A stretch of DNA of 64,000 nucleotides. Source: Cellvibrio sp. PSBB023 (GTDB taxonomy: Bacteria > Pseudomonadota > Gammaproteobacteria > Pseudomonadales > Cellvibrionaceae). A program made the position numbers and the translations under genes. The stretch covers positions 2,520,001 to 2,584,000 of the forward strand of contig NZ_CP019799.1 in assembly GCF_002007605.1 (NCBI RefSeq), written 5' to 3'. Under the pieces are notes generated by a model. That model was not told where the DNA came from, made no database searches, and worked only from the letters and a program-made list of their open reading frames with translations. This document shows positions 39,055 through 60,413 of this stretch, one piece after another; position 1 is the stretch's first letter, and every line of letters starts with the position of its first letter.

Positions 39055-41838
39055 CTACTCAGCCGCCAAATTCAACGCGCGGCGAATTTTTTCCCAACTC
39101 ACGTATTTGAAATTTTGCGGGGCTTCCGGCATGACTTTATGGCCGTCCTGCACCACTAACATGCCCTCGGGAAATACGGCACCAAGATTCGCGCTGGTCA
39201 CTTCCAGCCCATCCGTTTCGGAAACGCCATCGATATTGCGGCCAGCATCCAGAGCGATGTGCACAATACCGCGCAGCGCATAGGGCGCCGTCGCATCCAG
39301 CACCACAAAACTGTTATTACCCTGACTGGAAACCACAAGGTAGGATTGATGCTTGCCCTGATAAACCCCCATACCTTCAATATCCGCCACCAGAATCTCA
39401 CCTGCCGCGAGCACTTTTCCCAAACGGGTTCCAGTGTCAGGCTCAGCGGGAATGGTCCAGAGCGCTACATCTTCCTCGCCCACAAACAAACGTTGATTTT
39501 TATCATCGGCGACACAACCTTCCGGCTGACTCTCCACATAAAAACGGCGCTTAACCTGCCCTTGCCATTGCACTGAATTTTTTTGTGATTCGCTCACATT
39601 TGCACTCAACAGAATTTGCTGGAACTCACCACTTTTATCATTGGGAATTGCATAGAGCGCGCCATCAGGTTGTGATGCACTGGCGGGCGATTGGTACATG
39701 CAAAACCCATAAATTTCTTTCATATCCGTAGCGATGCTACCGGAGAATGTTAATTTTCCGCTGCGTGGATCTATAGTGTAAATCGACAAGCTATTGTCAT
39801 CGCGATTGGTAGCCACAGCCAGATCGAACACTTTTTTCCCTACTCGAACACCGTAGCGCACATCCACATTATTTAATTTTCCGGTATTAAAATGCTGGAC
39901 CTCGCGTCCTTGCAAATCGTACACAAACAAACCCTGTTGTTTATTAGTGCCCAACACCAGACTTTTTTGCGGGCGTTTTTTATTCACCCACATTGCCGGG
40001 TCATCAGCGGCATCACCAAAGCGCAACATGGATTCGGTTTGTACGTCTGCGGTAACGGAAACAATTGGGTGTGCAGCAACGGCCGCAGGTGCAGCCTGCC
40101 ATGGCAACTGCAGTGAATGGCTACCGGTTTTTTCATCATTAACGATTAATGCCACGGCCTGCTGTTCAGCCATATAAACTGCTTTAACCACTTCCGGCTC
40201 ATCGGTTTGCGGCAAGTCAATCAATGGCAGCGGTTTAAATTCGCGCTGTTGGGTTGAATAAAAAGCGAGTTGTTTTTCCTCAGCAATCGCCGCGATCAAA
40301 CCTTGCGGCACTACCGCCAGCGATTCCACACTACCGGTTAATGTACCAAAAGGTTTTTGCATATCCACTGCAGTACGACCAGGCGATGACTCCTCACTCG
40401 CGCCCTGCGCCCAAATACCCACACCTTCTTCGGCGATAAATAAAAGATCCTGCTCGTCATCCACTGCACAGGCTTTACTGTTAGGTGCAATGGGTAGGCG
40501 ACGCAATAATTGTGCATGCGGATTGCCATTTGCATCCATCACCAACCAATGCTCTGCTGTACCGCGCTCATCCAATAAATACAAAGACAAATTGTCGCCT
40601 GCCGCGTGGCTCAAACATATATTTTCAATTTTAAATGCAGGGGTTGGCACACGCAGCAGTTCACGTAACTGACCGGTTGTTTCATCCAACACAATCAATC
40701 CGGGCTGTTGCTCCGGTAAAAATACCGTCGCCGCCACCAATGCTTGCGTTGTTTTACCTTGTAGCTGAACATTTACCGGGTAGCGCCAATCCACTAATTC
40801 CGCCGCTTGATCCAAATGCGCAAGGGATTCACCGTTTGTCGCACGCCAGTGGATTTGCTGATTATCGCCCACCGTCAAAAACGTGGATTGCTGATTTTTT
40901 TTCAAGGGCAAAGGAGCACGCAAGGCCGATGGTGATGGCGCAACGCGCGCTGAAACCGGCAGGGAAAAATGATAAGCGTGACGCGCCAGAGGCGCAGCAT
41001 TGCCAACCTGATAAGTATCCACGCTTACATTGCCTGCTGCGCTCAGCGTGAATAGGCGATACATGGGGTTATGCACAGATTCATCCGGTATTTTGGTGCG
41101 TTCCAAACCGGGAATATGTAAGTAATGCACCTGTCCGATTTTTTTTGAGTGTTGCACGCGGTCCATATCCATGTGTAAATCACCGGAAATAACGGCTGCC
41201 ACGTTAGGCTCGGCCACAATTGATTTGAACCCAGCATGCGCTATGCCTTTTTCAGCATTCTCAGGAAAAACTCCTTGCTGGGCACTGTGCACAATTAACA
41301 ATACCGGTTTTGGTTGCAAGCGCTTTACTTGTGCCTGTATCCAGGCAATACCCTGATCATTGAAATCGCGCCCGTGATCGGGTGATGCCAATACCAATGC
41401 AACCTCTGGAAACTCCAACACATATTTTGTGTGTGTAATATCCCCCTTACCCTGGTTCCACAGCGATGCAAATTGTAAGAAACGTGCCTCGGTACTTCCG
41501 TGCTCCTCATTGCCCATGATGGGGTAAAACGGTTTACGCAATTGCTGCAAGACCGGTGTGGCATTTTCATACTGTACCAACGTCCCTTTATGGGCGATGT
41601 CACCCACACCCACCACAAAATCCAAGCGGTTTTTGTCGGCAAATTTATTAATGTCAGCTACCGCGGCAGCAAGATTAGGAAACGCGGGCTCCGGTTTAGG
41701 CTCAGCATCACCTAACACCGCAAAGCGTAATACAACTTCATCAGCAATGGCATTTTTTGATTTTACATCGACCGCCAAGGCACCAATCGATAAGAGCAAC
41801 AATGGCAATAGAGCTATTTTTTTTAAAAACGTAGTCAT
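39055..41838 (-). CDS. metallophosphoesterase / double beta-propeller phytase fusion
   Basis: Exported enzyme of 927 residues. After a signal peptide (about 1-22) comes a calcineurin-like phosphoesterase domain (about 35-270) with D44, GD80, GN110-EE, H184 and GDLH222. Several usual histidines are acidic here (E46, E111, D220). A first, degenerate propeller spans about 315-590. The C-terminal 600-925 is a beta-propeller phytase with ADDPAMWV, LNNVDVRY, DIEGMGVYQ and SETDGLEV, the calcium and phosphate ligands of that family. Likely role: release of phosphate from phytate. The TonB receptor gene 130 bp upstream points to uptake of the substrate or products. The ATG with GGAA eight bases upstream is chosen over 41913. 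Confidence 0.88.
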   Translation of the reverse strand: MTTFLKKIALLPLLLLSIGALAVDVKSKNAIADEVVLRFAVLGDAEPKPEPAFPNLAAAVADINKFADKNRLDFVVGVGDIAHKGTLVQYENATPVLQQLRKPFYPIMGNEEHGSTEARFLQFASLWNQGKGDITHTKYVLEFPEVALVLASPDHGRDFNDQGIAWIQAQVKRLQPKPVLLIVHSAQQGVFPENAEKGIAHAGFKSIVAEPNVAAVISGDLHMDMDRVQHSKKIGQVHYLHIPGLERTKIPDESVHNPMYRLFTLSAAGNVSVDTYQVGNAAPLARHAYHFSLPVSARVAPSPSALRAPLPLKKNQQSTFLTVGDNQQIHWRATNGESLAHLDQAAELVDWRYPVNVQLQGKTTQALVAATVFLPEQQPGLIVLDETTGQLRELLRVPTPAFKIENICLSHAAGDNLSLYLLDERGTAEHWLVMDANGNPHAQLLRRLPIAPNSKACAVDDEQDLLFIAEEGVGIWAQGASEESSPGRTAVDMQKPFGTLTGSVESLAVVPQGLIAAIAEEKQLAFYSTQQREFKPLPLIDLPQTDEPEVVKAVYMAEQQAVALIVNDEKTGSHSLQLPWQAAPAAVAAHPIVSVTADVQTESMLRFGDAADDPAMWVNKKRPQKSLVLGTNKQQGLFVYDLQGREVQHFNTGKLNNVDVRYGVRVGKKVFDLAVATNRDDNSLSIYTIDPRSGKLTFSGSIATDMKEIYGFCMYQSPASASQPDGALYAIPNDKSGEFQQILLSANVSESQKNSVQWQGQVKRRFYVESQPEGCVADDKNQRLFVGEEDVALWTIPAEPDTGTRLGKVLAAGEILVADIEGMGVYQGKHQSYLVVSSQGNNSFVVLDATAPYALRGIVHIALDAGRNIDGVSETDGLEVTSANLGAVFPEGMLVVQDGHKVMPEAPQNFKYVSWEKIRRALNLAAE

Positions 41839-41968
41839 AAGGAATTTTCCAACACCAGATATTGTTGTGGCTGTTATTGTCTTGTTGAAACACACCGGCA
41901 CATTGAATAACACAATGCACAGGTGTTATTACAGCCACACAAATTACACACGCAACATTAATTCATTC

Positions 41969-44746
41969 TTAAAATTGCATAAAGGTAATACCCAATTTAT
42001 AGGTTGCACCGTAGCGCTCATATTGGGCATTGTAATTACGTGTATTGACATAGCTGTAATATACCTCGTCGGTTAAATTCAGCGCTTCAAAATGCAGTTT
42101 GATTGATTCAGTAACGTAATAGCGCAATGAGAAATCCAATTGGATCTGGTCATCCACATAGGTATCTTTTTTTGCATCCAAGGTATCAAGAACTTCCAAC
42201 AAATAGTTGGATTTATAATTTGCCGATAAACGCATGCTGATCAAATCAGACTCATACCCCACCATCAAGTTCGCCGAGGTGTCTGATTGACTAGGCAGGG
42301 GAATATCCCGTGCAATAAATTCACCCTCGTCATAACCGCCAATTTCTGCCGTGGAGTCAACAAACGTAGCATTACCACCAATTAATAATCCGTCCCAAGG
42401 GGCAGGTAATTGGGTAAATTGTTTAGAAGCAGCCAGTTCAATACCAAACAACTCAGCGGTTTTGCCATTAGCAAATGTCTGTGCTTTGTCAAACGCCTCG
42501 TAACCCGGCGTTTTTCCCAAGTCCACGTCGTAAACAAAGTTTTTAATATCTTTATAAAACACAAAGGCTGATATTACGCTGGCAACCCCAGGATAATGCT
42601 CAATACCCAGATCAAGATTACTGGACTCCAATGATTTTAAATCCGGGTTACCAAATTCCTTTTCATCACCTTCAATTAAGGTGCCGGGCGACAACTGTGC
42701 AAAACCGGGGCGAACTACAGAATTAGTCCATGCGGCACGCACCTGGGTTTTATCATCAACACTGTAGCGAATATGCAGTGCCGGTAAAAAATAATCGTCA
42801 GAGTTACTGAAGCGCTGGGCGGTTGCTACCTCGTCCTCACTATTATATGAAAACCCATCAGCAGTAAAATCGGTATTCTCGTAACGCACACCGGTAAGCA
42901 AGCGCCAGTTATCTATATCGATTCGCCCCATCACATAGGCAGCAGAAGTGTCTTCAGTAATATCGTAATCACCAATGACGCTCTCTTCCGGATTATCCTC
43001 CAGCGTATCTATTGCCGCTTTTACTGCACCGGCATTAATTTGATTGCCAAACTGGCCCAACTTGTAATCTACCGGTGAACCAGAAAATGCACTCAGTGAA
43101 GTATCGCCCAGAAATTCTTCACTCGCCCAAACCGTCACATCATTATCCTTGTTTCTTGCCTGATGTTTGGCTCCAAATTTTAGTTGCGCCGCATTGTTAC
43201 CTAGCTCCAGCTCGCGGGTGAAATCCAGATTCACCGCAGTGCTTTCATCATTGGTATTGGCACTACTCAACTCAACCTCATCCAATTTGTAACTGGCGCT
43301 TTGATAAAACTCGGCAGGAGCAGACAAACTTATTTTCTTGCTGTTGCTGTAGGAAACATCAAACGCCTCATCAGCAATCACGTCGTCATCAATTTTAAAT
43401 ACGGCGCCAGCAATGTTCTGCGGCTCGTCTTCGCTGGATTTGCTGTAAGCAACACGATAATCCACGGTCCAATTATCCAAGCGGGTTTGACCACCTAAAG
43501 ACGTCGACAGAATTTTTTGAGTTTCAGTACGATCCTTTAATTCACGCTGTACTTCTGCAGAATTAAATTCTCCCACTGCGACTGAGGTACCATCTCTTTC
43601 CCCCTCGTCATCTTCCTCAAAAAATTCAATGACATTCGCCAAGCGAATTTCCGAATCAGTATATTCACTGTATAGATTGCGCCAGTATAAATCTGTATTG
43701 TCGGTGGGCTTGTAATCCAGATTCAAGGTAACGCCCGAGCGCTCGCGGGTAATGCGATAGTCACGCTGCTCCAATTCTTCCAAACCCGCTTCACCGCCTT
43801 CAAAATCCCATGCGCCACCGGTCTCGACATTATCCGAACCAAATTTGCGTTTAAAAGAACTCACGCCAAACGCGATGCCAGCATTTTTTTCGCCATTGCC
43901 GATACTAAATTGGTTGCTTGCGGTAGCGGCCACTTTAGGGCTGTACTCTTCGGTATTTTCATCAAAACTACCTTCGGCGGTTAACTGGTAAAAAAATCCA
44001 TCGCGATCAAATGCTGACAAGCTTTGCACATCAATGCTGCCACCCAGTGAGTTGGCATCCATATCCGGCGTTAAGCTTTTGGTCACCGTCAGGTTTTCCA
44101 ATAAATCTGACGGAATCACATCCAATGCCACAGCGCGACGATCTGCATCCGGCCCCGGTACACCCACTCCATTAATAGTGACAGCGTTATAATCCGGGCT
44201 CATGCCGCGCACGCGCACATAGCGCCCTTCCCCTTGATCACGCTCAATAGACAAACCAGGCAAACGCTGTAGTGATTCGGAGACATTGGTATCCGGAAAT
44301 TGGCCAATTGCATCAGCGGATACAGCAGTAATAATATTGTCCGCACTGCGCTGTTTATTCAGCGATTTATTAATACCCGCAGCCTGACCAATTACAATCA
44401 CGTTTTCAACCAGACCCGACACACCCTGCAACTGAAAATTAGCGCGTGTGGTTTTTAAATCCTCGACGACTATAGCGCGCGCTATATTGTCAGCACCTAT
44501 GTAACTGGTCTCCAGGGTATATTGACCCGGTTTTATATCGGCAAAAACGAAACGGCCATCACGTTGACTTACCGCTTCGCGATTTAATTCTTTAATGCGT
44601 ACCTTAGCGCCTTCCAAGGCGATGCCTTTATCCGTAGCTTTTATTTGACCTTCAATGCGCCCATCGGCTGCTGCTTGAACAGCAACACCTGCGATAACCA
44701 ATGCCAGGCAGGTTTTATTAAACAAAGTCAGTGATGCGTTTTTCAC
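41969..44746 (-). CDS. TonB-dependent receptor paired with phytase
   Basis: Outer-membrane active transporter of 925 residues. Signal peptide about 1-27, a carboxypeptidase-regulatory-like beta-sandwich (about 30-110), a plug domain (SADAIGQFPDTNVSESLQRLPGLSIER... region, about 125-240) and a 22-strand barrel ending in GITFMQF. This is the long CarbopepD-plug type common in polymer-degrading bacteria. The start is GTG with GGGGA upstream. It is followed directly by the phytase gene, as in other Gammaproteobacteria, suggesting phytate or inositol-phosphate uptake; the ligand is inference. Confidence 0.9.
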   Translation of the reverse strand: MKNASLTLFNKTCLALVIAGVAVQAAADGRIEGQIKATDKGIALEGAKVRIKELNREAVSQRDGRFVFADIKPGQYTLETSYIGADNIARAIVVEDLKTTRANFQLQGVSGLVENVIVIGQAAGINKSLNKQRSADNIITAVSADAIGQFPDTNVSESLQRLPGLSIERDQGEGRYVRVRGMSPDYNAVTINGVGVPGPDADRRAVALDVIPSDLLENLTVTKSLTPDMDANSLGGSIDVQSLSAFDRDGFFYQLTAEGSFDENTEEYSPKVAATASNQFSIGNGEKNAGIAFGVSSFKRKFGSDNVETGGAWDFEGGEAGLEELEQRDYRITRERSGVTLNLDYKPTDNTDLYWRNLYSEYTDSEIRLANVIEFFEEDDEGERDGTSVAVGEFNSAEVQRELKDRTETQKILSTSLGGQTRLDNWTVDYRVAYSKSSEDEPQNIAGAVFKIDDDVIADEAFDVSYSNSKKISLSAPAEFYQSASYKLDEVELSSANTNDESTAVNLDFTRELELGNNAAQLKFGAKHQARNKDNDVTVWASEEFLGDTSLSAFSGSPVDYKLGQFGNQINAGAVKAAIDTLEDNPEESVIGDYDITEDTSAAYVMGRIDIDNWRLLTGVRYENTDFTADGFSYNSEDEVATAQRFSNSDDYFLPALHIRYSVDDKTQVRAAWTNSVVRPGFAQLSPGTLIEGDEKEFGNPDLKSLESSNLDLGIEHYPGVASVISAFVFYKDIKNFVYDVDLGKTPGYEAFDKAQTFANGKTAELFGIELAASKQFTQLPAPWDGLLIGGNATFVDSTAEIGGYDEGEFIARDIPLPSQSDTSANLMVGYESDLISMRLSANYKSNYLLEVLDTLDAKKDTYVDDQIQLDFSLRYYVTESIKLHFEALNLTDEVYYSYVNTRNYNAQYERYGATYKLGITFMQF

Positions 44747-44798
44747 AATAAGTCCCCAAGCGAATAATGAATTTCAACATCGCCAAACTAGGGTTCCT

Positions 44799-44816
44799 CT
44801 GTGACACTTCTGTTAC
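44799..44816 (+). promoter_or_regulatory. possible PhoB box
   Basis: CTGTGAC-ACTT-CTGTTAC: two 7-base half-sites 11 bp apart, 5/7 and 6/7 matches to CTGTCAT/C. It lies between the receptor-phytase pair and the GGDEF gene. Its direction points toward the GGDEF gene, not toward the phytase, so its target is uncertain. Confidence 0.35.
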
Positions 44817-44966
44817 CTCAATCAATAACCCGCACAAATATCCTGAGCTAATTTGCCTCCCCTACATCTCAATCAAGTCGACATTAAAATAATTTTCCGC
44901 CGTCATAAAAATGTCACTATTGTTTGCTAAGGGTGTCATCACTCAATTGCAGTGGACTCTCTTACC

Positions 44967-45896
44967 ATGCTCGCACTACACAAATGGAAATTACTTTTCC
45001 TTGCCTTGGTAACCAATCTGGCCTTGGTTGGCAGCCTTGCCAGTGGCGACATGAAAACTGCCGCCCAGTGGAATTGGCTGGATATTGTTGGCGAAGGCGG
45101 CCTGATACTGTTGGCGTTAATTTGGCTGCTACTGATTTTGCACAGCCGCCCCTCAGGGCGGGTAACACAATTTCTCAGCCTGGGGCTTAGCGCTATTTTT
45201 ATTGCCGGCTTTCAGGACTGGCTCGATGAATTTATTTCTTTTCCGGATAACGCCCTCTGGGATCACTGGATAGAATCCGGGTTTATGCCAATCGGCCTGG
45301 TATTATTAACCTTCGGTATTTACCACTGGCACAAAGAACAATTGCTGATCACCGAGCAATTGCGCAAGCGTGAACGTTTGTTCCGTGAACATCGCGGGCT
45401 GGATATCACCACCAGCTTAAGCGGCGCACATTATTTACGCGCGCAACTACAGCATGAACTGGCCAAAGGCGAGCATACAAACTCACTTGCATTGGTATTG
45501 ATTGATATTGATAATTTTGCGCAGATCAATCGCCACTACGGCAACCGTGAAGGAGACAATTTACTGCACGCATTGAGTGAATTATTGTTATTGAACATTC
45601 GCCGTAATGATTTACTTTGCCGCTACGCTGGTGATCGTTTTGCACTACTACTCCCCAACACCGGCACACTGATGGCCAATACGATTGCTGCCGAAATATC
45701 CCAAGCCGTGCGCCACTTTGCCTTCAAACCACAGCAACAACAGGACAGTATTTTTCATTCTGTAAGTATTGGCATTGCCTTTAGCAGTGGCCAAAGCGCC
45801 ACAGCGGACACACCAGACACGCTCATCGCTCGCGCCACCCATGCACTGCTACGCGCCAAAGAACAGCGCGATCTGCATCAACCACGGGCAGCCTGA
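44967..45896 (+). CDS. membrane GGDEF-domain protein with degenerate active site
   Basis: Protein of 309 residues: four hydrophobic segments (about 8-26, 42-60, 65-82, 107-120), a short coiled linker, and a GGDEF domain (about 145-300). The catalytic motif is AGDRF (221-225) in place of GGDEF, while the RxxD inhibitory c-di-GMP site (R212-D215) and the LIDIDNF metal motif remain. It is probably a c-di-GMP sensor and not a cyclase. Start could also be GTG at 44952. The AraC gene begins one base after its stop. Confidence 0.85.
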   Translation: MLALHKWKLLFLALVTNLALVGSLASGDMKTAAQWNWLDIVGEGGLILLALIWLLLILHSRPSGRVTQFLSLGLSAIFIAGFQDWLDEFISFPDNALWDHWIESGFMPIGLVLLTFGIYHWHKEQLLITEQLRKRERLFREHRGLDITTSLSGAHYLRAQLQHELAKGEHTNSLALVLIDIDNFAQINRHYGNREGDNLLHALSELLLLNIRRNDLLCRYAGDRFALLLPNTGTLMANTIAAEISQAVRHFAFKPQQQQDSIFHSVSIGIAFSSGQSATADTPDTLIARATHALLRAKEQRDLHQPRAA

Positions 45897-45897
45897 T

Positions 45898-46932
45898 ATG
45901 GTGGTGACAACTGAATTACCGCTGCGCCAGATGCCACAAGCTTATTACGAACGCGATACAGCCATCATTCCATCCAGCTATTGGCCTGCCACATTAATTG
46001 ATTTGGCCATCACTCGCGCCATACCGGAGCATAAACTGCTGCGCCATACTGGTATTTTTTGTGAGGATTTCTTTCACACAGATCACCGCATCTGTCCGGA
46101 ACAATTGCTGCAGTTGATTCATAATATTCAAAAAAATTACACTGCTCATGACATCAGCTTTTTATTAGGCCATCAATTGTTACCCAGCAATATGGCCAAC
46201 CTTAACCAGCAACTGGTAACAGCCCGTAATCTCATCGAACTAATCGATGAGTTGATTGAACATCAACACATAGCTTGTCCGCTTATTAATATCCGGTGCA
46301 CCTATGAAGGCGATCAATTAGTTATCTGTTGGCAAGATGCTTGCGGCGCAGAAGATGCATTCATATTTTTAGTAGAGACAATGACAACAGCTATTTGCAG
46401 CATGACTCGCTGGCGATCCAACACTCGCCTCCCCTGGACACTATACTTTGCACATAAAAAACCCGAGTACATTGAACAATATCAAGTGCATCTTGGTAGC
46501 GACTTGCATTTTGATTGCCAGCGCAATGCGATGAGCATTGCGCGCGATTATTGTTATCAGGCCTGGACAACAATACATACAACACACACTGATGATATGC
46601 TGCCATACCCTCTGGATATTCCCAGCAAAGGCTTTTTAACAGAAGTTTATGACTACCTGAATAACAATATTTCTACGGCACCAAATCTGGAACAAACCGC
46701 TGCCGATTTCGGTATGAGTTGCGCCAGCTTCAAACGCAAACTAAAAAAACACCGCAGCCACTTTCAAGCAATTTATGATGCAGTACGCAAGGATTTGGCC
46801 GTATATTGGATACACAAGGAAGGCTGGAGCAGCGAACAAGTTGCGCAACGATTACATTTTCACGATGTGGCAAACTTGCGCCGCGCCTTCAAAAAATGGA
46901 CAGGATTAACACTACTTGCCGCACGACATTAA
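45898..46932 (+). CDS. AraC-family transcriptional regulator
   Basis: Protein of 344 residues. The N-terminal two-thirds resembles the arabinose-binding-type dimerisation domain of OruR/ArgR-like regulators (SYWPATLIDLAITRAIPEHKLL). The C-terminal 100 residues hold two helix-turn-helices (LEQTAADFGMSCASFKRKL and SSEQVAQRLHFHDVANLRRAF). It follows the GGDEF gene by one base, so they are coupled; a longer frame to 45769 overlaps that gene and is rejected. The inducer is unknown. Confidence 0.9.
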   Translation: MVVTTELPLRQMPQAYYERDTAIIPSSYWPATLIDLAITRAIPEHKLLRHTGIFCEDFFHTDHRICPEQLLQLIHNIQKNYTAHDISFLLGHQLLPSNMANLNQQLVTARNLIELIDELIEHQHIACPLINIRCTYEGDQLVICWQDACGAEDAFIFLVETMTTAICSMTRWRSNTRLPWTLYFAHKKPEYIEQYQVHLGSDLHFDCQRNAMSIARDYCYQAWTTIHTTHTDDMLPYPLDIPSKGFLTEVYDYLNNNISTAPNLEQTAADFGMSCASFKRKLKKHRSHFQAIYDAVRKDLAVYWIHKEGWSSEQVAQRLHFHDVANLRRAFKKWTGLTLLAARH

Positions 46933-48642: not shown

Positions 48643-50832
48643 TTAGTTCTTGCTGTCTTTCGGCAGCGAGTTGAGCGAGACAATGCGGGTTTTACTGATT
48701 TTGTGGCGATAGATTTCGCGCAGGTATTTGATTGCTTTTTTTACGCTGTCGCGCGACAGGCGAATATCATTGATTGAACAGAACTTCTCCGAGTCATTGA
48801 TGAGCTCACGGTATTTTTTCTCGTACATGGGTTTGATGGCATACCAGTTTGTATCAAGAATTTTTGCCGGATTTTCGTATTCGTTGAGCATTTTATCCAC
48901 CAGTGCCTCATCGAACTCGTCAGCGCGAATAAATTCGAGCATGGCGGCATCCAGTTGCTCATCAAAGCGATAGGCATCTTTGGCGAAGCAGCGCTTGATA
49001 AAGGCGACAATCAACGTCAGGAAATCATCGCTCAAGCAAGGGCTTTTTACGATCAGGGTGGTCAAGGAAATATTGGCTGATGCACCTATGACCAATGCGT
49101 AGCGCTTGAGCGTGGTATTGGGGAAAAGCGCATTCAAATGGGATTTGAGTTTATTCAAATCCATATAACTCAGTTTGTAATCTTTGGGCAGAGAGATAAT
49201 CGAGACAACGGACGAGCAGTTCTTGAAGAAATGCAGGTCTTTTAGTTCGTTCGCATCGTAACCTTTTTGCAAATACTTGCTGAGCGCTTCGCGATAGCGG
49301 ACAGACTCGATGGGTAACAAACTGATACCTTCAATTGCCTGGGTGACTTTATTGAAGTGCGGCAGGTCGATGGAGCGATAAAATAAATCATCGATATTCA
49401 GTTCACCGATTTTTTTAGTGTCTATGCCGCGCAATTTATCAACACCCTGCGGAATATTGGCGGGAATAACCGATTCAGCATAGGCAACCGCTACGGGGCC
49501 AGCCAGGCTCATAAACAGGTCATTGGCATCCAGGCGGATGGTTTCACCAATGTCGATACCGGCGCGGCGGAAATAGTTTTCGTCGTAATCGGTGGTTACG
49601 GCTTGGGCGGTGAGGATGTTAAAAATTTGCTGGGAAATATATTGGTTGGCGTATTTCTCCATGGCGTTAACATCGATGTGCTGGATGGCGCCTTCATCGG
49701 TTTCTTCGGCGTAGCGCATGATGTCGTTGGAGATCAGCATCATGGCATTCCAGGGACGAATGCGGTGCATTACGCTGGCTTCACTGCTGTCTTCATTGTC
49801 GAAGTTGTAGGAGAAGTCCCACTCTTCCGATAAATATTTACACAGCAATCGTCCGGCATTGATATGCAATGCTTCTGACATTTCCACGCCGTGATCGGAA
49901 ATATTGGGCAGGATACATATGCCGCTGGTGAAAATTGGCTCAAACACAAACGAGTGGCCGCGATTGGTATTGTCTTCGGTTTGGGCGCGCACGTCGAAGG
50001 TTTTGCTCATGTAGGCGTATTGCTGGGCCAAGCCAAATTCGCTGGCCATACCCGAACCGGTACCGCCGCCTGCACTGAAGATATAAAAATACAAACGCGA
50101 TTGGTTGGCTTTAATACCGCAAGAATCAATCAGGTACGAATGTACAAATTTCCAATCGGGATTGGAAAAGCGCTGGGTATCTTTGTTCAGGATAATTTTG
50201 GCCAGGTATTGCCCGAGAATGGGTGCGTTGCCTGAACCGCCAGCATGGACTTCAGACAAGTCCATGATTTTCATTTTGGTGTAATCCTTGAGGAAACCGG
50301 CGCGCTCACCCTTGTGCGAAAAGCGGATACGGCCTTCGATATCCTTATCCAAATCGCCCAGCATCACCAGCGGCTCAATTAAAAATACCGGTTTGAGTTG
50401 ATGCGAGCCTTTCAGGTGCAAACTGCGCTTGATCCAGCGCATGGGCATGTGATCAGGCTCGCGCACTTCTTTTTCTTCGCTGAGGAATTCATTCAGGTAA
50501 AAATTGCGCGCGTTGTAGACCAAACTCGCCACATCCAACGCAATATTGGAACCGCAGCGCCCCAAGCCAATCAGGCACACCGAAGGAAACTGCGGTTGTT
50601 TTTGATCGTCAACATCTTGTTGGTTGATCAGGTGCGGGTAGACGCTGGTGCGCAGGGTATCCAGGTTGTACAGGATTTTATTCAAATCCCGCTCAGTGAA
50701 ATACATGTAGCTATTGCCGTTGGCGTTGGTCAGCGGAGGGTGAATAACCTCCACTTCTACCTCGGGGCTGGCAGTGATGACATCGTCCTGTTCGGCAGGT
50801 TCTTGGGGGCGAGAGGTCTTTTTGGTAGCCAT
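48643..50832 (-). CDS. divergent tubulin/FtsZ-superfamily GTPase
   Basis: Protein of 729 residues. A disordered acidic N-terminal arm (about 1-40) precedes a Rossmann-like start CLIGLGRCGSN (87-96) that fits the FtsZ/tubulin T1 loop. SAGGGTGSG (253-261) is the tubulin signature T4 loop. SND at about 368 fits the guanine-contact region, and RLDANDLF (433-440) matches the FtsZ T7 catalytic loop with D435 and D438 three apart. A C-terminal region of about 260 residues has no recognised match and ends in a basic coiled stretch (YRELINDS..., KYLREIYRHK). It resembles the Pfam Tubulin_2 type and is not FtsZ or TubZ. No partner gene is adjacent; it has its own terminator and a 209-bp gap upstream. 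A GTP-dependent polymer is inferred. Confidence 0.82.
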   Translation of the reverse strand: MATKKTSRPQEPAEQDDVITASPEVEVEVIHPPLTNANGNSYMYFTERDLNKILYNLDTLRTSVYPHLINQQDVDDQKQPQFPSVCLIGLGRCGSNIALDVASLVYNARNFYLNEFLSEEKEVREPDHMPMRWIKRSLHLKGSHQLKPVFLIEPLVMLGDLDKDIEGRIRFSHKGERAGFLKDYTKMKIMDLSEVHAGGSGNAPILGQYLAKIILNKDTQRFSNPDWKFVHSYLIDSCGIKANQSRLYFYIFSAGGGTGSGMASEFGLAQQYAYMSKTFDVRAQTEDNTNRGHSFVFEPIFTSGICILPNISDHGVEMSEALHINAGRLLCKYLSEEWDFSYNFDNEDSSEASVMHRIRPWNAMMLISNDIMRYAEETDEGAIQHIDVNAMEKYANQYISQQIFNILTAQAVTTDYDENYFRRAGIDIGETIRLDANDLFMSLAGPVAVAYAESVIPANIPQGVDKLRGIDTKKIGELNIDDLFYRSIDLPHFNKVTQAIEGISLLPIESVRYREALSKYLQKGYDANELKDLHFFKNCSSVVSIISLPKDYKLSYMDLNKLKSHLNALFPNTTLKRYALVIGASANISLTTLIVKSPCLSDDFLTLIVAFIKRCFAKDAYRFDEQLDAAMLEFIRADEFDEALVDKMLNEYENPAKILDTNWYAIKPMYEKKYRELINDSEKFCSINDIRLSRDSVKKAIKYLREIYRHKISKTRIVSLNSLPKDSKN

Positions 50833-51041
50833 CGGTTGCGGATCCTTTTTACGAGCGACAAGGTTGTGCGCGACAATGCGCGATATTTTTTATGGGTATT
50901 CAACGGCCGACTATAGCCAGACTACTAAACACCCTTAACGCTAGTCGCGACTGGCAACAATTACAAATGCGCCAACCCTGTCACAGTAAAAAAAACCGCA
51001 ATAACAGCTAAAACTGGCCTATCACCGCCCTAAAAGCCTCG

Positions 51042-52877
51042 CTATTCCGTTATCACACTCAACAGCGGCTGGTTAACGCGCTGGTTCAGTGCCGCCAATA
51101 CCGCACCATCGCGGGCATAGATATCTGGCTTGAAAGCCACTTTTGATTCGCTCACGGCATCCACTGTCCAATAGGCGAGCATGATGGGCACCCGCTTGAC
51201 GAGTGTTACATTGCGGGTTTTACCGGAAGCGAGTGCAATGCGGGAACTGTTCCAGTCAGGGTTTTCTGACAGCAACAAATCCACCAACTCCAGCGCGCGC
51301 TCCACGCGGATGCACCCCGAACTGAAAGCGCGCTGGCTTTTGTTAAATAACTTTTGATGAGGCGTATCGTGCAGGTACACCGAATAAGGATTGGGGAAAC
51401 GGATCACCGCCTTGCCCAAGGCGGCATCCGGGCCCGCATCCTGACGCAGGGTGACATTACCGGGGCGATTCCAGTCGATCGTTGCCGGATCCAGCTGTTT
51501 GCCATTGCTATCGAGCACGCGAATATTGTGTTCACGCAGGTAGTTCAGATCCTTGCGCAGCTTGGGCAGGATATCCTTACGCAAAATAGTGGGGGGAACC
51601 GTCCAGGTAGGATTGAGAGTGATGTAGTTGACCTCGGATTTAAAGACAGGCGTAGTGCGATATGACATCCCCACCTGCACCCGCGATCGCCACGCTTCTT
51701 TGCCGCCTTTGAAATAGGTGATTTTGAAACCGGCGATATCCACCAATAACAAATCGTCAGGAATGTTGTGCAGCAGCCAGCGCGCACGGTCAAGATTGAC
51801 GCGGATTTGATCCACGCGGGATTGCGCCGACACATTTAACGCGGCGCGCGTCGCCGGGCCTATGGCACCGTCGTCATCCAGGTATTGATCGCGCTGGAAC
51901 TGTTTCACCGCGGCCACCAGGTATTCATCGAACACCTCATCGCTATTAACCGGCGCAGCACTACTGCTGCTCGCTGAACTGCTGTCGGTACTTGCGGCCA
52001 CCGATGTTACAACGGCATCAGCCGATGCATCGCCTTCGCTGCTAGCGGCCGAGCTGGCTTGCGCACTGGCGCTATTGGCGGCAATACACTTGGCCACGGC
52101 TTCGTCTTGCTCGTGTGGCGAGACGGGTAAATAGTCACCGGTTGCCAGTAAACGCTGACGTAAAAAACTCACCTGCGGATCAATCATACAGGGCTTGAGC
52201 GTAGGGCCCGCTGGCAGTGAAGGCCAACCGCCGGCAGCAGCCAGTTGGCGATAGCGCGCCAATCCAGCCTTTAAACTGGCATAGGCTGGATGCTGGGGGC
52301 GGGTCTGGGCAAAGATATCGGCAATGCGACTCGACTCAACACCTTCATTCATCAATCCCGCTACCACCAATGGCGAGAGTTCATTCAGCTCAAAGTTCCA
52401 CTGGGGGTCAAGTCCGGCCGGATTCACCTTGCCATTAAAAAGATGATAGAGCGCACGCAGATAGGCGTTGGTCGCCAGGAGCTCCCACTCCACCTGTTCG
52501 CTCGCTGGAGGCTGCCGATCTATTTGCAGCTGATCATGCATTTGGCGCAGGAAGGTGACGGAGTAATCCTCCGGTTCAAGGCCATCGGCAACCAGACCTT
52601 CCAGCGCCTCAATGAGCGCTTGCAAGCGTACCGGGTCTGTCCAGACCGGCTGATAACCGCGCTGCTCATAAAAACTGCCTACGGCCTGCGCCACCGGACT
52701 GACCGGTTTTATCGACAGCGGATCACCCACAGGAACCTGCAAGGCCAGCACACGTGATTCCAAGGCCTGCACTAACAGACTATTCGCCACACCGCGCAGA
52801 CTGGTGTCAGTCTCCCTGGCGTCTTGTGCCGTGACAGACAGGCTTATCACCAAGCCCAAGGTTAATAACAACCGCAT
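51042..52877 (-). CDS. L,D-transpeptidase (YcbB/LdtD type) with Ser-rich insert
   Basis: Periplasmic enzyme that makes 3-3 cross-links in peptidoglycan. It is 611 residues from the ATG giving RLLLTLGLVISLSVTA (signal peptide about 1-17). A scaffold domain (about 65-215), a peptidoglycan-binding domain (about 228-350) and a YkuD domain (about 375-540) with H503 and SSGCIR (C522, R524) follow. A 45-residue Ser/Ala/Asp linker (268-312) interrupts the peptidoglycan-binding domain. It is divergent from a second YkuD-type gene. A longer frame to 52952 has no signal sequence at its start and is rejected. Confidence 0.92.
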   Translation of the reverse strand: MRLLLTLGLVISLSVTAQDARETDTSLRGVANSLLVQALESRVLALQVPVGDPLSIKPVSPVAQAVGSFYEQRGYQPVWTDPVRLQALIEALEGLVADGLEPEDYSVTFLRQMHDQLQIDRQPPASEQVEWELLATNAYLRALYHLFNGKVNPAGLDPQWNFELNELSPLVVAGLMNEGVESSRIADIFAQTRPQHPAYASLKAGLARYRQLAAAGGWPSLPAGPTLKPCMIDPQVSFLRQRLLATGDYLPVSPHEQDEAVAKCIAANSASAQASSAASSEGDASADAVVTSVAASTDSSSASSSSAAPVNSDEVFDEYLVAAVKQFQRDQYLDDDGAIGPATRAALNVSAQSRVDQIRVNLDRARWLLHNIPDDLLLVDIAGFKITYFKGGKEAWRSRVQVGMSYRTTPVFKSEVNYITLNPTWTVPPTILRKDILPKLRKDLNYLREHNIRVLDSNGKQLDPATIDWNRPGNVTLRQDAGPDAALGKAVIRFPNPYSVYLHDTPHQKLFNKSQRAFSSGCIRVERALELVDLLLSENPDWNSSRIALASGKTRNVTLVKRVPIMLAYWTVDAVSESKVAFKPDIYARDGAVLAALNQRVNQPLLSVITE

Positions 52878-53093
52878 AAACGAGCGCTCCTGCACGCTTG
52901 AAAAAACAACATGAATCTCACAAAACGACAACAAACGGCCCAAACCCAGCATGATTTTTGACCAATTGTTATTTGCCGCACCTCTTTCATGATGCTAGCA
53001 TTCAAACGCTTACCGCTATAGTGCCGGTAACAACATAAGTTCACCTAGCAGGGCCGCTACAACTTTAATAACCCAGTGTGTCCGGGGATGTCC

Positions 53094-53849
53094 ATGTTGT
53101 ACTCATTTTTCAGGGCCTTGTCTTTTTCGGCCGGCCTACTGGCATTGTGTTGTGCCAGCGCTTTCGCTAATCAGGATCGTACGCAAAACCCGTTTATGCA
53201 TCCGGCGTTTGGCAAAGACCCATCCTTTCTGAATTTGGTTGATCGCCTGACCCGCGCAGCACCTGCCGCTAACCCCCAAGTGATAAACATGGCGCTCACC
53301 GCGCTTGATTGCGCCATCAAAAATGGCATGGAGCCTGCGCGCAACCTGACACTGATCGACTATTCCCTCGCTTCCACCCAAAAGCGCCTGTGGGTGTTTG
53401 ACTTGATTAATGGCAAGTTGCTGTTCCACGAACTGGTGGCTCACGGCAAAAATACCGGTGAGAACTTTGCCCGTCATTTCTCCAACACCTATGGCAGCTT
53501 GCAAACCAGCCTTGGCCTGTTCCGTACCAAAGAAACCTACATGGGTGCCAATGGCTATTCACTGCGGATGGAAGGATTGGAAGAAGGCTTTAACGATAAG
53601 GCTATGGAGCGCGCCATTGTTTTCCACGGTGCGCCCTATGTGGATTTAAAACTGGCCCAAAAGCTCGGCCATTTGGGCCGCAGCTATGGCTGCCCAGCGG
53701 TGCGTAACGGCATTGCCCGCAAGGTGATTGACACAATTAAGGGTGATCAATTCCTGTTTTCCTACTATCCTGATAAGCACTGGCTGGCATCATCCAAGTT
53801 TTTAAATTGCAGCGGTCGCGAACAACTGGCACAACAAGATTTCCGCTAA
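53094..53849 (+). CDS. YkuD_2-family murein L,D-transpeptidase-like protein
   Basis: Exported protein of about 251 residues with a signal peptide (ALSFSAGLLALCCASAFA). The catalytic-domain motif is HLGRSYGCPAVRN near the C terminus, with AIVFHGAPYVD before it giving the His, as in the YkuD_2 family. Several starts are possible (GTG 53076, ATG 53088, ATG 53094); the last is chosen for GGGG six bases upstream. It is divergent from the YcbB-type gene across about 215 bp. Exact reaction unproven. Confidence 0.85.
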   Translation: MLYSFFRALSFSAGLLALCCASAFANQDRTQNPFMHPAFGKDPSFLNLVDRLTRAAPAANPQVINMALTALDCAIKNGMEPARNLTLIDYSLASTQKRLWVFDLINGKLLFHELVAHGKNTGENFARHFSNTYGSLQTSLGLFRTKETYMGANGYSLRMEGLEEGFNDKAMERAIVFHGAPYVDLKLAQKLGHLGRSYGCPAVRNGIARKVIDTIKGDQFLFSYYPDKHWLASSKFLNCSGREQLAQQDFR

Positions 53850-54054
53850 ATACGCCTCCCCTCAATGGAGCCTGCACAGGACGATGCAGGCGCCAACCAG
53901 ATGTCTGTTAAGACATGTTAATCAAACCCTCATTAATCAGATTAATTTATCAAGCTGTGTAAAACCTGTCGCTGATCGACAGGCGAGCAGTTATATATAG
54001 TCAATGTGATTACAAGCATAACAACGATTAGATAGTTCAAGGGGAAAACACACC

Positions 54055-54843
54055 ATGAAAAACAACCCATTAAAAAATGCAGTCGCGCCGGTTTTATTGG
54101 CTTTTGCGGCTTGCTCCATCAGTACCCTCACCCTTGCTGCCGACGACAGCAAAAAAGAACCCTGGCAACTCGCCGAGGAAACCGAAGTATGGGAGCCTGT
54201 ACCGCCGGTAGTATCCACGCCGGTTAATGCAGCGCCCTCCGACGCCGTAGTGTTGTTCGATGGCAAAGACCTGAGCAAATGGGAGTCAGTCAACGGCGGT
54301 GCCGCGGCTTGGACTGTTGGGAAAGGCGCGCTGACAGTAGCGGCCGGTAAAGGCGATATTCGCACCAAAGAATCCTTCTGCGATGCGCAACTGCACATCG
54401 AATGGAAAACCCCGACCAAGATTACTGGTGCCGATGGCAAATTGCTGGAAGGCCAAGGCCGCAGCAACAGCGGTGTGTTCTTCCAGGAACGCTACGAAAT
54501 CCAGGTGTTGGATTCCTACAACAACAAAACCTACCCCAACGGTCAGGCCGGTTCGGTGTACAAGCAAACTATCCCGTTGGCAAACGCCACCCGTGCACCG
54601 GGCGAATGGCAGACTTACGACATTATTTTTACCTCGCCCAAATTTGATGGTGACAAGCTCACCAAACCCGGCTACGTGACTGTGCTACATAACGGTGTTC
54701 TGGTACAGAACCATGTTGAAATCCAGGGCGCTACCGCATGGATTGGCAAGCCGGTTTACGAAGCTCACGGCTGTGCGCCACTGCGCCTGCAAGACCACGG
54801 CAATCCAGTTAGCTTCCGTAATATCTGGCTGCGCAAACTCTAA
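54055..54843 (+). CDS. secreted 3-keto-disaccharide hydrolase-domain protein (DUF1080)
   Basis: Protein of 262 residues with a signal peptide (about 1-28) and one beta-sandwich domain of the DUF1080/3-keto-disaccharide hydrolase family (about 62-262). Typical segments are VVLFDGKDLSKWESVNGG, GRSNSGVFFQERYEIQVLDSY and FRNIWLRKL at the end. The family is common in Bacteroidetes and Planctomycetes and is linked to 3-keto-glycoside cleavage. The gap before it holds a perfect 7-bp hairpin at 53965-53983 and a TATATA near 53992. A terminator separates it from the next gene. Confidence 0.88.
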   Translation: MKNNPLKNAVAPVLLAFAACSISTLTLAADDSKKEPWQLAEETEVWEPVPPVVSTPVNAAPSDAVVLFDGKDLSKWESVNGGAAAWTVGKGALTVAAGKGDIRTKESFCDAQLHIEWKTPTKITGADGKLLEGQGRSNSGVFFQERYEIQVLDSYNNKTYPNGQAGSVYKQTIPLANATRAPGEWQTYDIIFTSPKFDGDKLTKPGYVTVLHNGVLVQNHVEIQGATAWIGKPVYEAHGCAPLRLQDHGNPVSFRNIWLRKL

Positions 54844-54902
54844 TTCCTCCCGTTTTATCTGTCCGCTGACAGTTTGATCTTGTAGAAACTGTCAACTTCT
54901 TT

Positions 54903-54932
54903 GCGCCGCAGCTAACACTGCGGCGCTTTTTT
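54903..54932 (+). terminator. intrinsic terminator after the DUF1080 gene
   Basis: Perfect 9-bp stem GCGCCGCAG / CTGCGGCGC, loop CTAACA, six T. It lies only 25 bp before the next start codon, so the next gene depends on read-through or on its own closely placed promoter. Confidence 0.9.
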
Positions 54933-54956
54933 CATGACATCGCACTGGTATAGATT

Positions 54957-57900
54957 ATGTCTCTACTTAAAAAAACCGCACTGCTAGGCTCGCTGATCGC
55001 CCTTGGCATGCCGCTCTATGCACAAAACCCCGCCGATTTTTTCAAGGCTAACAGCGCTTGGGTGACCACCACCAAAGCCAGTGCCGTAGGCAATAAATTA
55101 CAACTGGCTCCCACCAGCAAAGACGGTACTATTCTCGCTCTCAATGCCAGCAGCAGCGAACATCTGGTTGCCCACGAGTGGCTGGGCGATTCCGTGCTTG
55201 ATACGGAGTTTTTGGTCACTGAAGGCAGCGATGCAAAATTGTTTATTCAAGGCCGCTACTCGGTTGATTTAAAAAATATCACCAACGAATGGCAGCATTT
55301 GCGCGCTAAATTTCGCGCACCACGCTATAACGAAGCCAGTATCAAAACCGAACCAGCCTTGATTCTGGAAGTAACCATTAATGGCGAGCCGGTGTTGACG
55401 AATGACATCCGCACCGGCCTGAGCGAAGGCTCCAGTATTCCGTGGGAAGGTTCGGGCGGTCCGACCAGTTTTCTGGTCAAAAAAGGCCAGTTGGCACTGC
55501 GTAACTTCACCCTGGCAGGTGCCGATTTCTCGCTGGTTAAACCACCCAAAGCCTCAGGCGAAGCCACCAATGAAAAAGAGCTGGTGGATTTTGTCGCACT
55601 GGGTAAAGAAACCTTTGACTCTGTCGGCTGTAATGCTTGTCACTTGATTTCCAAGGATGACAGCGGTGTCAGCACCGGCCCTAACCTCTATGGTTTGTTC
55701 AAACGCGAACCGCGCAACCGCGAAGTCGTGGAAGGCGGCGAAGGTCATCGCTTCACCATCAAAGCGGATCGCCAATACCTGCACCGCAGCCTGCGTGAAC
55801 CGGAAGCACAATTAGCCATTGCCGAGAGCGGCGCTAAAAAAGGCGAAGCCTTCCTGCCGATCATGCCCGCGTTTTCCGCGCAGGTATTGAGTGATATGCA
55901 AATTGATGCGATTGGCGATTACCTCGCGACCCTGAACGTTCCTGCCGAACAGGGCCCGGCAATTAAACTGCTCGCACAGACCGGTGCCGAAGAATACGAC
56001 CCAGTAAAAGATCGCCTGCAATTTTTAGTGGGCGATGAAGTGCGCATCCAGCGCGGCCCCATGGCATTGACCGGCGAATTCGGCAGTTCTGGCCGCGCTA
56101 TTCATGTGGGCACTCCTTGGGGTGTGAACTACACCTTTGACCCACGCCTGCTCGCCATCACCAAAATTTGGCAAGGCGGCTTCCTGGACATGACCGGCGA
56201 GTTTTTGAATCGCGGCGGCAAAGGTTTAAAGATGGGCTACGAAAGCCGCGAAATTAATCTGGGTAGCAAGCCCTTTTTAATCGCGCCGCTGAATGCCAAA
56301 AGCGAAGCCATTGATTTCTCCTTCAAGGAAGCTCGCTTTGGCGATGCCGCTACCGTAAAAGCCTCACTCGATAGCAAAGAAGACCACTTGGCGCGCGTTG
56401 CCGCTATGGATGCCCAATTCCTGGGTTACAGCCGCGACTCCAAGCAAAAACAGCAGTTGCCGAGCTTCCAGTATCGCGTAGGCAAAAACACCCTGGACAT
56501 ACGCACAACTATCGCCGCCGATGGCACAGTAACCGTTAACCTCACGGGTGAGCTGGGCAGCCCACAAACCTTCGCGCTCAATAGTGATGCATTGCAAAAC
56601 ATTGCCAGCAAACAAGGTCAGCTTGCCAATCAGCAATGGACTTTACCCGCCGGTAAAACCAACGCCACCTTGACCGCCAAAATGACGTTGGCAAATAATG
56701 CCTGGCGCCCGGAAGCGGTGAAGTTTGACTATCGCAAACAGCCGGTAAAAATCACCGAATCCAAGGCCAATATGCCGGCAGGTTACAGCGTAGAAAGCTA
56801 CTACCCGCCCAAAGACAACTTTGGCCGCGAGCAATTATTTGAAGCGCTGGGCCTGAGCCTGACTGAAGACAACACGGTAGTAATTGCTACCCGTACCGCC
56901 GGTATCTGGCGCCTGGTGAAAGGCCAATGGCACCTGTTTGCCGACGGCACTTTTGACAGTCTGGGTGTAATCGCCGAGGACAAAAAAGGCCTTAGCGTGG
57001 TTGTGGGTCAAAAAGCCGAGTTGACGCGCATCAGCGACACCAACGGCGACGGTATTGCGGATAAATACGAAACCCTGTTCGATGCCCACTCCTATCACGG
57101 CAACTATCACACCTACATGCACGGCCCAACCCGTGGCAGCGACGGCGCCTACTACATCAGCCTGAACCTGGCCCACGACGACAGCGGCTCCAGCTACAAG
57201 GCTGGCGGTCAATACATGGGCACCCAGGGCGGCATGGGCGGCTGGAATATCCGCGTAGAACCCAATGGCAAATTCACCCCATGGGCTTACGGCCTGCGCA
57301 GCCCCGCCGGTTTGGGCACAGCGCCTGATGGTCGCATCTGGTACTCGGATAACCAAGGCGAATACATGAGCACCTCCAAGATTTTTGTGCTCGAAAAAGG
57401 CGCCTACTACGGCCATCCATCCGCGTTGGTTGACCTGCCCGGCGTAACACCGGAGATAGCCGAAAAAACCCGCGACAGCATGCTCGATAAACGCACCGAT
57501 GCGATTATTCTGTTGCCACACAACCGCGTAGCCAACTCGCCCGGCCACCCGGCGTGGGATACCACCAAAGGCAAATTCGGCCCCTTCACTGGGCAAATGC
57601 TGATGGGCGATCAAACCCAATCCAACTTGCTGCGCATTGCCGTACAAAATGTGGATGGCAAAGAGCAAGGCAGCGTTATGCCATTTATTGATGGTTTGGA
57701 ATCCGGTGTAATGCGTCCACTATTCCTGAAAGATGGCAGCCTGCTGCTCGGTCAAACCGGCCGCGGCTGGCAGGCAAAAGGCGGCCATGTCGCCAGCCTT
57801 CAGCGCATTGTGTGGGATGGCAAAACCGTCGCACCAGCGATTCACGAAATGCTGGCAACAGCGACCGGCTTCAGCCTGCAATTAACCCAGCCACTGGCGG

Positions 57901-58208
57901 CCTCCATCACCAGCGATGCGCTCAAGTCACTGCTGGCGCTGGAGTCCTGGGTATACCGTGATGCCGCCGAGTACGGTTCGGATGAACTGGGCATGCAGAA
58001 AGAAACCATCAGCGCCCTGCGCATCAGTGCTGATCGCAAAAGTATCGAGATTGATTTAGCATCGCTGGCACAGGCAAAGGTTCACCCACACCAAACTGCG
58101 CGGGTGTATCATGCCAACCTCGACAGCAAGACACTATTTACCAAAGATGCACCGGAAAAAATGGAAGCGTATTACACACTCTATAAATTTCCTGCTGCTA
58201 AAAATTAA
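54957..58208 (+). CDS. multidomain secreted cytochrome c / DUF6797 / beta-propeller protein
   Basis: Exported protein of 1083 residues, signal peptide about 1-22. In order: a DUF1080-like beta-sandwich (about 28-195), a cytochrome c domain with C225-N-A-C-H229 and likely Met ligand M303, a DUF6797-type region (about 335-600), and a glucose/sorbosone-dehydrogenase-like propeller (about 610-1000) with a calcium-type loop DTNGDGIAD. The architecture resembles the PVC-type heme-binding dehydrogenases of Planctomycetes and Verrucomicrobia. Substrate unknown; oxidation of a sugar linked to the 3-keto-disaccharide protein upstream is inference. Confidence 0.85.
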   Translation: MSLLKKTALLGSLIALGMPLYAQNPADFFKANSAWVTTTKASAVGNKLQLAPTSKDGTILALNASSSEHLVAHEWLGDSVLDTEFLVTEGSDAKLFIQGRYSVDLKNITNEWQHLRAKFRAPRYNEASIKTEPALILEVTINGEPVLTNDIRTGLSEGSSIPWEGSGGPTSFLVKKGQLALRNFTLAGADFSLVKPPKASGEATNEKELVDFVALGKETFDSVGCNACHLISKDDSGVSTGPNLYGLFKREPRNREVVEGGEGHRFTIKADRQYLHRSLREPEAQLAIAESGAKKGEAFLPIMPAFSAQVLSDMQIDAIGDYLATLNVPAEQGPAIKLLAQTGAEEYDPVKDRLQFLVGDEVRIQRGPMALTGEFGSSGRAIHVGTPWGVNYTFDPRLLAITKIWQGGFLDMTGEFLNRGGKGLKMGYESREINLGSKPFLIAPLNAKSEAIDFSFKEARFGDAATVKASLDSKEDHLARVAAMDAQFLGYSRDSKQKQQLPSFQYRVGKNTLDIRTTIAADGTVTVNLTGELGSPQTFALNSDALQNIASKQGQLANQQWTLPAGKTNATLTAKMTLANNAWRPEAVKFDYRKQPVKITESKANMPAGYSVESYYPPKDNFGREQLFEALGLSLTEDNTVVIATRTAGIWRLVKGQWHLFADGTFDSLGVIAEDKKGLSVVVGQKAELTRISDTNGDGIADKYETLFDAHSYHGNYHTYMHGPTRGSDGAYYISLNLAHDDSGSSYKAGGQYMGTQGGMGGWNIRVEPNGKFTPWAYGLRSPAGLGTAPDGRIWYSDNQGEYMSTSKIFVLEKGAYYGHPSALVDLPGVTPEIAEKTRDSMLDKRTDAIILLPHNRVANSPGHPAWDTTKGKFGPFTGQMLMGDQTQSNLLRIAVQNVDGKEQGSVMPFIDGLESGVMRPLFLKDGSLLLGQTGRGWQAKGGHVASLQRIVWDGKTVAPAIHEMLATATGFSLQLTQPLAASITSDALKSLLALESWVYRDAAEYGSDELGMQKETISALRISADRKSIEIDLASLAQAKVHPHQTARVYHANLDSKTLFTKDAPEKMEAYYTLYKFPAAKN

Positions 58209-58255
58209 TTTTCTACAAATTATCCACTTGCGATAAAAATGGAATCCGGCATTTG

Positions 58256-58408: not shown

Positions 58409-58460
58409 GTCCATTTATCTATCAGCGAAGGTTTTTTGTAGATAGCGATTAAGGACATAC

Positions 58461-60323: not shown

Positions 60324-60342
60324 TTTTAGATGCAGCATAAAC

Positions 60343-60381
60343 AAAAACGCCCAAGCATTTTTTTTGCTTGGGCGTTTTTTT
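60343..60381 (+). terminator. bidirectional intrinsic terminator
   Basis: Stem AAAAACGCCCAAGCA / TGCTTGGGCGTTTTT around a T-only loop, followed by more T. Five A at the other end allow it to end the convergent response-regulator gene as well. Confidence 0.9.
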
Positions 60382-60413
60382 ATGGAGAGCACTTCACAAA
60401 AAACAGCAACCAT

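Follow-up and report, generated by a model that had tools for sequence, protein, structure and literature searches.

A probable FtsZl2-type member of the tubulin/FtsZ superfamily in Cellvibrio sp. PSBB023, encoded by a patchily distributed and horizontally moved gene

The window analysed here is a stretch of 64,000 nucleotides from Cellvibrio sp. PSBB023 (contig NZ_CP019799.1, positions 2,520,001 to 2,584,000). On its minus strand, an open reading frame at positions 48643-50832 starts with ATG and has 729 codons for a protein of 729 residues. The sequence AAGGA, resembling a ribosome-binding site, is located 10 nt 5' of the start codon (50843-50847, minus strand). Further upstream, the promoter-like element TTGTAA-N17-TAGCGT at 50936-50966 on the same strand is probably the gene's own promoter and is common to other genera. 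Downstream, a stem-loop resembling an intrinsic terminator (48625-48606, minus strand) is followed by a run of T residues, which agrees with the original prediction that the gene has its own terminator. The next gene upstream (51042-52952, minus strand) encodes a YcbB-type L,D-transpeptidase with Scaffold, YkuD and PG-binding domains and precedes the reading frame by a gap of 209 bases. It is oriented divergently from the gene of a second L,D-transpeptidase of the YkuD_2 type (53076-53849, plus strand). L,D-transpeptidases form cross-links in the cell wall. The flanks were scanned with Pfam for 15 of the 16 ORFs of at least 90 codons between 38 and 64 kb of the window. Phage, plasmid or divisome genes were not found among these 15 ORFs, as had been claimed from the sequence, and the two nearest upstream are the L,D-transpeptidases. 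Around the locus (39055-46932 and 53076-63969), genes for a phytase/metallophosphatase, TonB-dependent receptors, a 3-keto-disaccharide hydrolase, GGDEF proteins and histidine kinases were also seen.

The conservation of the motifs was analysed in an alignment of 142 sequences, consisting of the window protein and 141 relatives; the coordinates that follow are on the minus strand. The protein has an N-terminal tail (residues 1-41; 50710-50832) that is variable between genera and nearly missing in the Marinomonas-type members, followed by a strongly conserved core (residues 42-722; 48667-50709). In the T1-type loop GLGRCGSN (residues 89-96; 50545-50568), all positions but L90 are invariant, i.e. 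G89, G91 and R92 to N96. The T3-type loop HAGGSGNAP (residues 196-204; 50221-50247), which was paired by hhalign with the FtsZ loop GAGANP, is invariant save S200, which is mostly alanine. The T4 tubulin signature AGGGTGSG (residues 254-261; 50050-50073), detected by Pfam, alignment and pattern, and the T7-type loop RLDAND (residues 433-438; 49519-49536), which has the DxxD spacing of the aspartates, are fully invariant. An arginine replaces the FtsZ asparagine two positions before the first T7 aspartate. The pattern GxGxxG[ASN]N ... GGGTG[ST]G ... DxxD covers residues 89-438 in this order. Its central part GGGTG[ST]G did not appear in any of 200,000 residue shuffles of the window protein, and of the 382 stop-to-stop frames with 60 or more codons in the window, this ORF alone contained it. 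The start of GLGRCGSN and the start of GGGTGSG are 166 residues apart, compared to 88 residues from GVGGGGGN to GGGTGTG in the FtsZ of the same genome, so that the T1-T4 region exceeds that of FtsZ by about 80 residues. The ORF of 729 residues with T1-like, GGGTGSG and T7-like motifs in the right order was confirmed by pattern and alignment, and the motifs proved to be conserved among the relatives.

The C-terminal region had been described as unassigned, and it gave no match to a Pfam family above cut-off when the window protein was scanned. Among the scanned members, the Pfam matches in this part were few, weak and scattered. It contains the signature ILDTNWYAIKPMYEKKYREL (residues 658-677; 48802-48861, minus strand), which is invariant at most positions and nearly reaches the invariance of the GTP loops. 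At the other end of the protein, some public annotations (683-695 residues, e.g. P0054 and P0078) begin about 40 residues later and lose the variable tail.

The relationship to the tubulin/FtsZ superfamily was analysed with profiles. The window protein matched the Pfam family Tubulin (PF00091) with E 0.0014 and 19.4 bits, which is below the curated cut-off of 33 bits, and Tubulin_2 (PF13809) with 11.1 bits, below the cut-off of 27. When 32 diverse members including the window protein were scanned singly, PF00091 was matched at E <=1 by all 32 (best E 3.1e-05) and Tubulin_2 by 31 (best 0.0012). The Tubulin_2 profile thus detected a weak similarity throughout the family and left the window protein itself under the cut-off. 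In the genomes of three relatives, the T1 part (positions 2-39) and the T4 part (112-129) of PF00091 matched one ORF in the correct order, each match being weak singly (E 2.1-4.5). A comparison of residues 80-305 with 33 FtsZ sequences by hhalign gave a value of 25.0, and the column shuffles (n=40) reached at most 20.5. In a forced full-length comparison with FtsZ, the T1, T3 and T4 loops were paired. When the whole-length alignment A2 (142 sequences, residues 40-729) was compared with the 33 FtsZ sequences, GGGTGSGMA alone was aligned with a probability of 5%, and the global mode returned nothing. Because the N-terminal profile scored above all shuffles and PF00091 was detected in 32 of 32 members, sequence comparison supports the predicted membership of the window protein in the superfamily.

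By eye, residues 541-597 (49042-49212, minus strand) have the look of the FtsZ C-terminal domain. Three cuts of this region gave 11.5, 11.9 and 11.7 in hhalign versus shuffle means of 11.8, 10.5 and 13.1, and the candidate was rejected. Neither a single-sequence nor a profile search found a tubulin or FtsZ chain in the PDB. The hits to cytochrome P460 in the single-sequence search (E 0.18-0.19) and to ribosomal protein L23 in the search with the A3 profile (four entries, E 0.17-0.57) were taken as chance. AlphaFold models had a mean pLDDT of 37.3 with alignment A1 (8 sequences) and of 46.6 with A2, both too low for the models to be usable. A Foldseek search with the second model gave 35 matches at E <=10, of which not one reached E <=0.001, and the longest helix in this poor model had 29 residues.

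A sole protein of this kind was found in Pseudomonas protegens FD6, with 79-80% identity over the core. The strain Pf-5, which provides the type sequence of the FtsZl2 family, is presumably also P. protegens. FtsZl2 was described by Makarova and Koonin in 2010 with PFL_1302 of Pseudomonas fluorescens Pf-5 as the type (PMC2875224). According to this paper, FtsZl2 proteins retain T1, T4, T6, T7 and H7, carry inserts between T1 and T4, have a C-terminal stretch of some 300 residues without recognised similarity and are without a coiled-coil domain. They are also given as proteobacterial, as co-occurring with FtsZ and as being without gene context, and the authors predicted that they form filaments. 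Marinomonas is included in the alignment of that paper, with a legend that is silent on the family of the sequence; our protein search found FtsZl2 relatives in Marinomonas.

The window protein resembles the published family in its T1, GGGTG(S/T)G and T7 motifs and in the extra residues between T1 and T4. Over roughly 250-300 C-terminal residues, it also shows neither a Pfam match above cut-off nor a likeness to FtsZ in hhalign. The family around it is proteobacterial, occurs beside FtsZ and shows no general gene association, and nothing was found that excludes the window protein from FtsZl2. We conclude that it is very probably an FtsZl2 member and hence belongs to a little-studied group of FtsZ/tubulin relatives. 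The assignment was made via the published description and the P. protegens FD6 protein. In the literature searched, judged mainly from listings, no experimental or functional study of FtsZl2 was found. In UniRef, some members are labelled 'Tubulin like' or 'Tubulin-like protein'.

The window protein shares with FtsZ the order of T1, T3, T4 and T7, but it has 729 instead of 391 residues and remains below the PF00091 cut-off. The gene is also not universal in Cellvibrio, and a canonical FtsZ is encoded elsewhere in the genome. TubZ and PhuZ are members of the superfamily that are not involved in division; the window protein differs from them in that its relatives were found in zero plasmid or phage records. 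We searched 50,697 phage and 72,556 plasmid records with tblastn and scanned viral contigs with two peptide patterns, and none of the three contained a relative. The prediction that the protein is neither FtsZ nor TubZ is supported by these searches and by the separate FtsZ in the genome. FtsZl1 proteins (Tubulin_2, PF13809) have in common with the window family the GTP loop of the superfamily and the weak Tubulin_2 similarity. The window protein differs from them by staying under the PF13809 cut-off and by having a T7-type loop, and genes for the FtsZl1-type vWA, GTPase and OmpA-like proteins were absent among the 15 scanned neighbours. Passages of a further paper discuss Tubulin_2 FtsZ-like proteins without the term 'FtsZl' (PMC9871819).

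Protein searches from three starting members, each with about 8,000 candidates scored and the best 120 listed, yielded 646, 647 and 644 clusters, i.e. at least about 645. The relatives are found in Pseudomonas, Rheinheimera, Alkalimonas, Paraglaciecola, Marinomonas, Cellvibrio and others. In a scan with one genome per species (84,980 species), 569 stretches encode a relative, and the best 80 of these, which are the closest ones, were examined. With the window genome included, the gene is present in 15 of 21 Cellvibrio genomes, in 2 of the 369 genomes sampled from the class and in 9 of the 398 sampled from the phylum, one of the latter copies being broken. None of the 15 other Cellvibrionaceae genomes sampled and one of the 21 other genomes sampled from the order had it. 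The six Cellvibrio genomes without the gene include five that are at least 96% complete and one that is 77% complete. FtsZ was detected with PF00091 above cut-off in all 21 Cellvibrio genomes. The window genome has one such match, the FtsZ, together with a single chromosomal FtsZl2 copy; in three relatives, too, one such match was found beside the FtsZl2 protein. The original prediction of a possible uncharacterised system of this clade was not supported, since FtsZl2 was published in 2010, is widespread in Gammaproteobacteria and was missing from the 15 other Cellvibrionaceae genomes sampled; the assignment to the superfamily outside FtsZ and TubZ was retained, and the predicted GTP-dependent polymer is plausible.

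The gene is patchily distributed and has moved horizontally between genera among the chromosomes of Gammaproteobacteria. Between Cellvibrio and Rheinheimera, the FtsZl2 core is 85.6% identical and FtsZ 67.9%. The values are 81.8% versus 63.2% for Rheinheimera and P. protegens, and 80.0% versus 75.4% for Cellvibrio and P. protegens. Within Cellvibrio, FtsZ is by a small margin more conserved than the FtsZl2 core in all 12 pairs with the window genome, the identities ranging from 97.4% (core) versus 98.5% (FtsZ) to 84.7 versus 89.7%. In a protein tree built by a quick method from 56 of 112 sequences, the Cellvibrio copies group with those of Rheinheimera, Alkalimonas, Arsukibacterium, Alishewanella and Paraglaciecola (SH-aLRT 99), apart from Pseudomonas. 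The forks inside this group are partly unresolved and several long branches occur elsewhere in the tree. On a Cellvibrio FtsZ tree of 20 of the 21 genomes (G002 was left out), the presence of the gene requires three changes. The gene is under strong purifying selection, with a dN/dS of 0.018 for the nearest relative and of 0.024-0.05 for seven others among eight Cellvibrio pairs; in these seven farther pairs dS is 1.3-2.2 and near saturation.

The promoter-like element was followed in the upstream regions of the relatives. The form TTGTAt-N17-TA(C/G)ntT is present in 27 of 43 loci of the Cellvibrio and Alteromonadales group (among L001-L051) and in 0 of the 53 other loci, at a shuffled rate of 0.4%. 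The -10-like half alone is found in 30 of the 43 group loci and in 1 of the 53 others, with a shuffled rate of 5%. The count omits L019-L022, which duplicate other Cellvibrio rows, and loci with an insufficient upstream stretch, such as L055. The element was detected in 11/13 Cellvibrio, 11/12 Rheinheimera/Arsukibacterium and 5/5 Alkalimonas loci, and in 0/8 of the R. tangshanensis group, 0/2 Alishewanella and 0/3 Paraglaciecola. These counts are descriptive because the pattern was derived from the same sequences. Since the element recurs in genera whose neighbour genes differ, it seems to travel with the gene. It was not among the promoters listed by a general sigma-70 scan, and its -10 hexamer is poor. 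The context of the -10 region resembles the sigma-S consensus, and the predicted promoter may be active in stationary phase or under stress. The spacer of the window's element contains the palindrome AGTCGCGACT.

To compare the neighbours, 98 loci were analysed, of which the first 18 had flanks of at most 1.5 kb. The longest-ORF rule hid the FtsZl2 gene behind an antisense ORF in 8 of the 98 loci, which left the flanking genes unaffected. Rheinheimera, Alkalimonas and Arsukibacterium have 16 neighbour clusters in common, which by eye include electron-transfer flavoprotein genes and others. No cluster among the 98 loci was common to these three genera and any of Cellvibrio, Alishewanella, Paraglaciecola or Pseudomonas. 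The main host groups have no partner gene in common.

In the superfamily, GTP occupies the pocket formed by T1-T4, where its hydrolysis is triggered by the T7 aspartates that the next subunit brings in. For FtsZl2, polymerisation and the cellular role are inferred. The protein would bind GTP in the T1-T4 pocket and its subunits would assemble head to tail, each one supplying its two T7 aspartates to complete the GTPase site of the following subunit. The invariance of these aspartates argues for such an assembly, which would yield a dynamic cytoplasmic filament. Since the gene arrives alone and works in many hosts, the protein most likely needs no dedicated adaptor. Together with the absence of a common partner, this argues for a self-contained scaffold, which may act on a component common to the hosts in envelope or intracellular organisation. 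The filament would be neither a division ring nor a DNA-partition motor. The absence of the gene from close relatives and the presence of FtsZ in 21/21 Cellvibrio genomes argue against a role in division, and segregation of mobile DNA is disfavoured by the lack of relatives in plasmid and phage records. We consider it likely that FtsZl2 is a stand-alone cytoplasmic GTPase that forms a T7-dependent polymer for neither of these two purposes.

Another explanation is that FtsZl2 is a GTP-binding regulator that has lost polymerisation, whose pocket would persist as a nucleotide sensor while the family-specific C-terminal region does the work. The near invariance of the C-terminal signature, the lack of a detectable FtsZ similarity in this region by profile comparison and the roughly 80 additional residues between T1 and T4 would fit such a protein. 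However, both T7 aspartates are invariant in the 142 rows and are known to act only in trans across the subunit interface, and we regard a regulator as unlikely. A filament that guides the adjoining YcbB and YkuD_2 enzymes in L,D-transpeptidation would give FtsZl2 a role in the cell wall. This is suggested by Cellvibrio, where one identical set of 13 of the 21 genomes carries both L,D-transpeptidases, adjoining the FtsZl2 gene, and the other 8 lack both. But 12 of the 13 could be placed on the FtsZ tree and fall into one group there (support 90/84), so that a single change suffices and the linkage counts as one event. Two further Cellvibrio genomes carry the FtsZl2 gene elsewhere and without YcbB, and six have none of the three genes. 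Of the 9 FtsZl2 carriers in the phylum sample (the window genome and the broken copy counted), 7 have YcbB, compared with 152 of 398 genomes overall. In the Pseudomonadaceae group g308, YcbB is present in 4 of 5 carriers versus 3 of the 5 non-carriers listed, and the neighbours in other host groups are unrelated. Coupling to YcbB as a general rule was rejected, since the tests at the genus and phylum levels did not support it. A functional pairing of FtsZl2 with YcbB is not supported, and we hold the cell-wall role to be very unlikely.

A second division FtsZ is hardly conceivable, even though the protein belongs to the superfamily and cell-wall genes adjoin it in Cellvibrio. All 21 Cellvibrio genomes have a PF00091 match above cut-off, whereas FtsZl2 was not found in six of them, five being at least 96% complete, and the surroundings of the window copy lack a division-gene cluster. 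A filament for DNA segregation of the TubZ type, or a phage relic, could account for the patchy occurrence and the horizontal movement. Against this, the tblastn searches of phage and plasmid records and the scan of viral contigs with two peptide patterns were empty, by which an origin from phages or plasmids was rejected, and mobile genes were not recognised around the chromosomal window copy; we give this explanation next to no weight.

Returning to the stand-alone polymer, a stronger version of it is possible, which we put forward tentatively and with more doubt than confidence. FtsZl2 could be a self-sufficient and transferable tubulin-type cytoskeleton, where one gene with its own promoter would bring a new type of filament into any host it enters. 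It would build this filament with a family-specific C-terminal domain (about residues 600-722) and be maintained by selection of roughly the same strictness as acts on FtsZ. FtsZl2 itself has already been published, and the interest lies in the easily testable question of its role. Among its carriers are named, harmless isolates from Cellvibrio, Rheinheimera and Pseudomonas protegens, and close relatives lack the gene. What is new here are the patchiness and transfer, the purifying selection, the promoter-like element, the own terminator, the neighbour comparison and the setting with the L,D-transpeptidases in Cellvibrio.

Two minor observations concern other members of the family. A sister clade (P0121, P0122, P0123 and L015) shares about 60% identity with the main FtsZl2 clade and is the deepest branch seen; its single named source is a Cellvibrionales MAG. 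A decayed copy of the gene (L107, L108 and L109, in genome G786, which is listed as a single contig) is split into pieces in several frames and has a gap of about 0.9 kb near residue 342.
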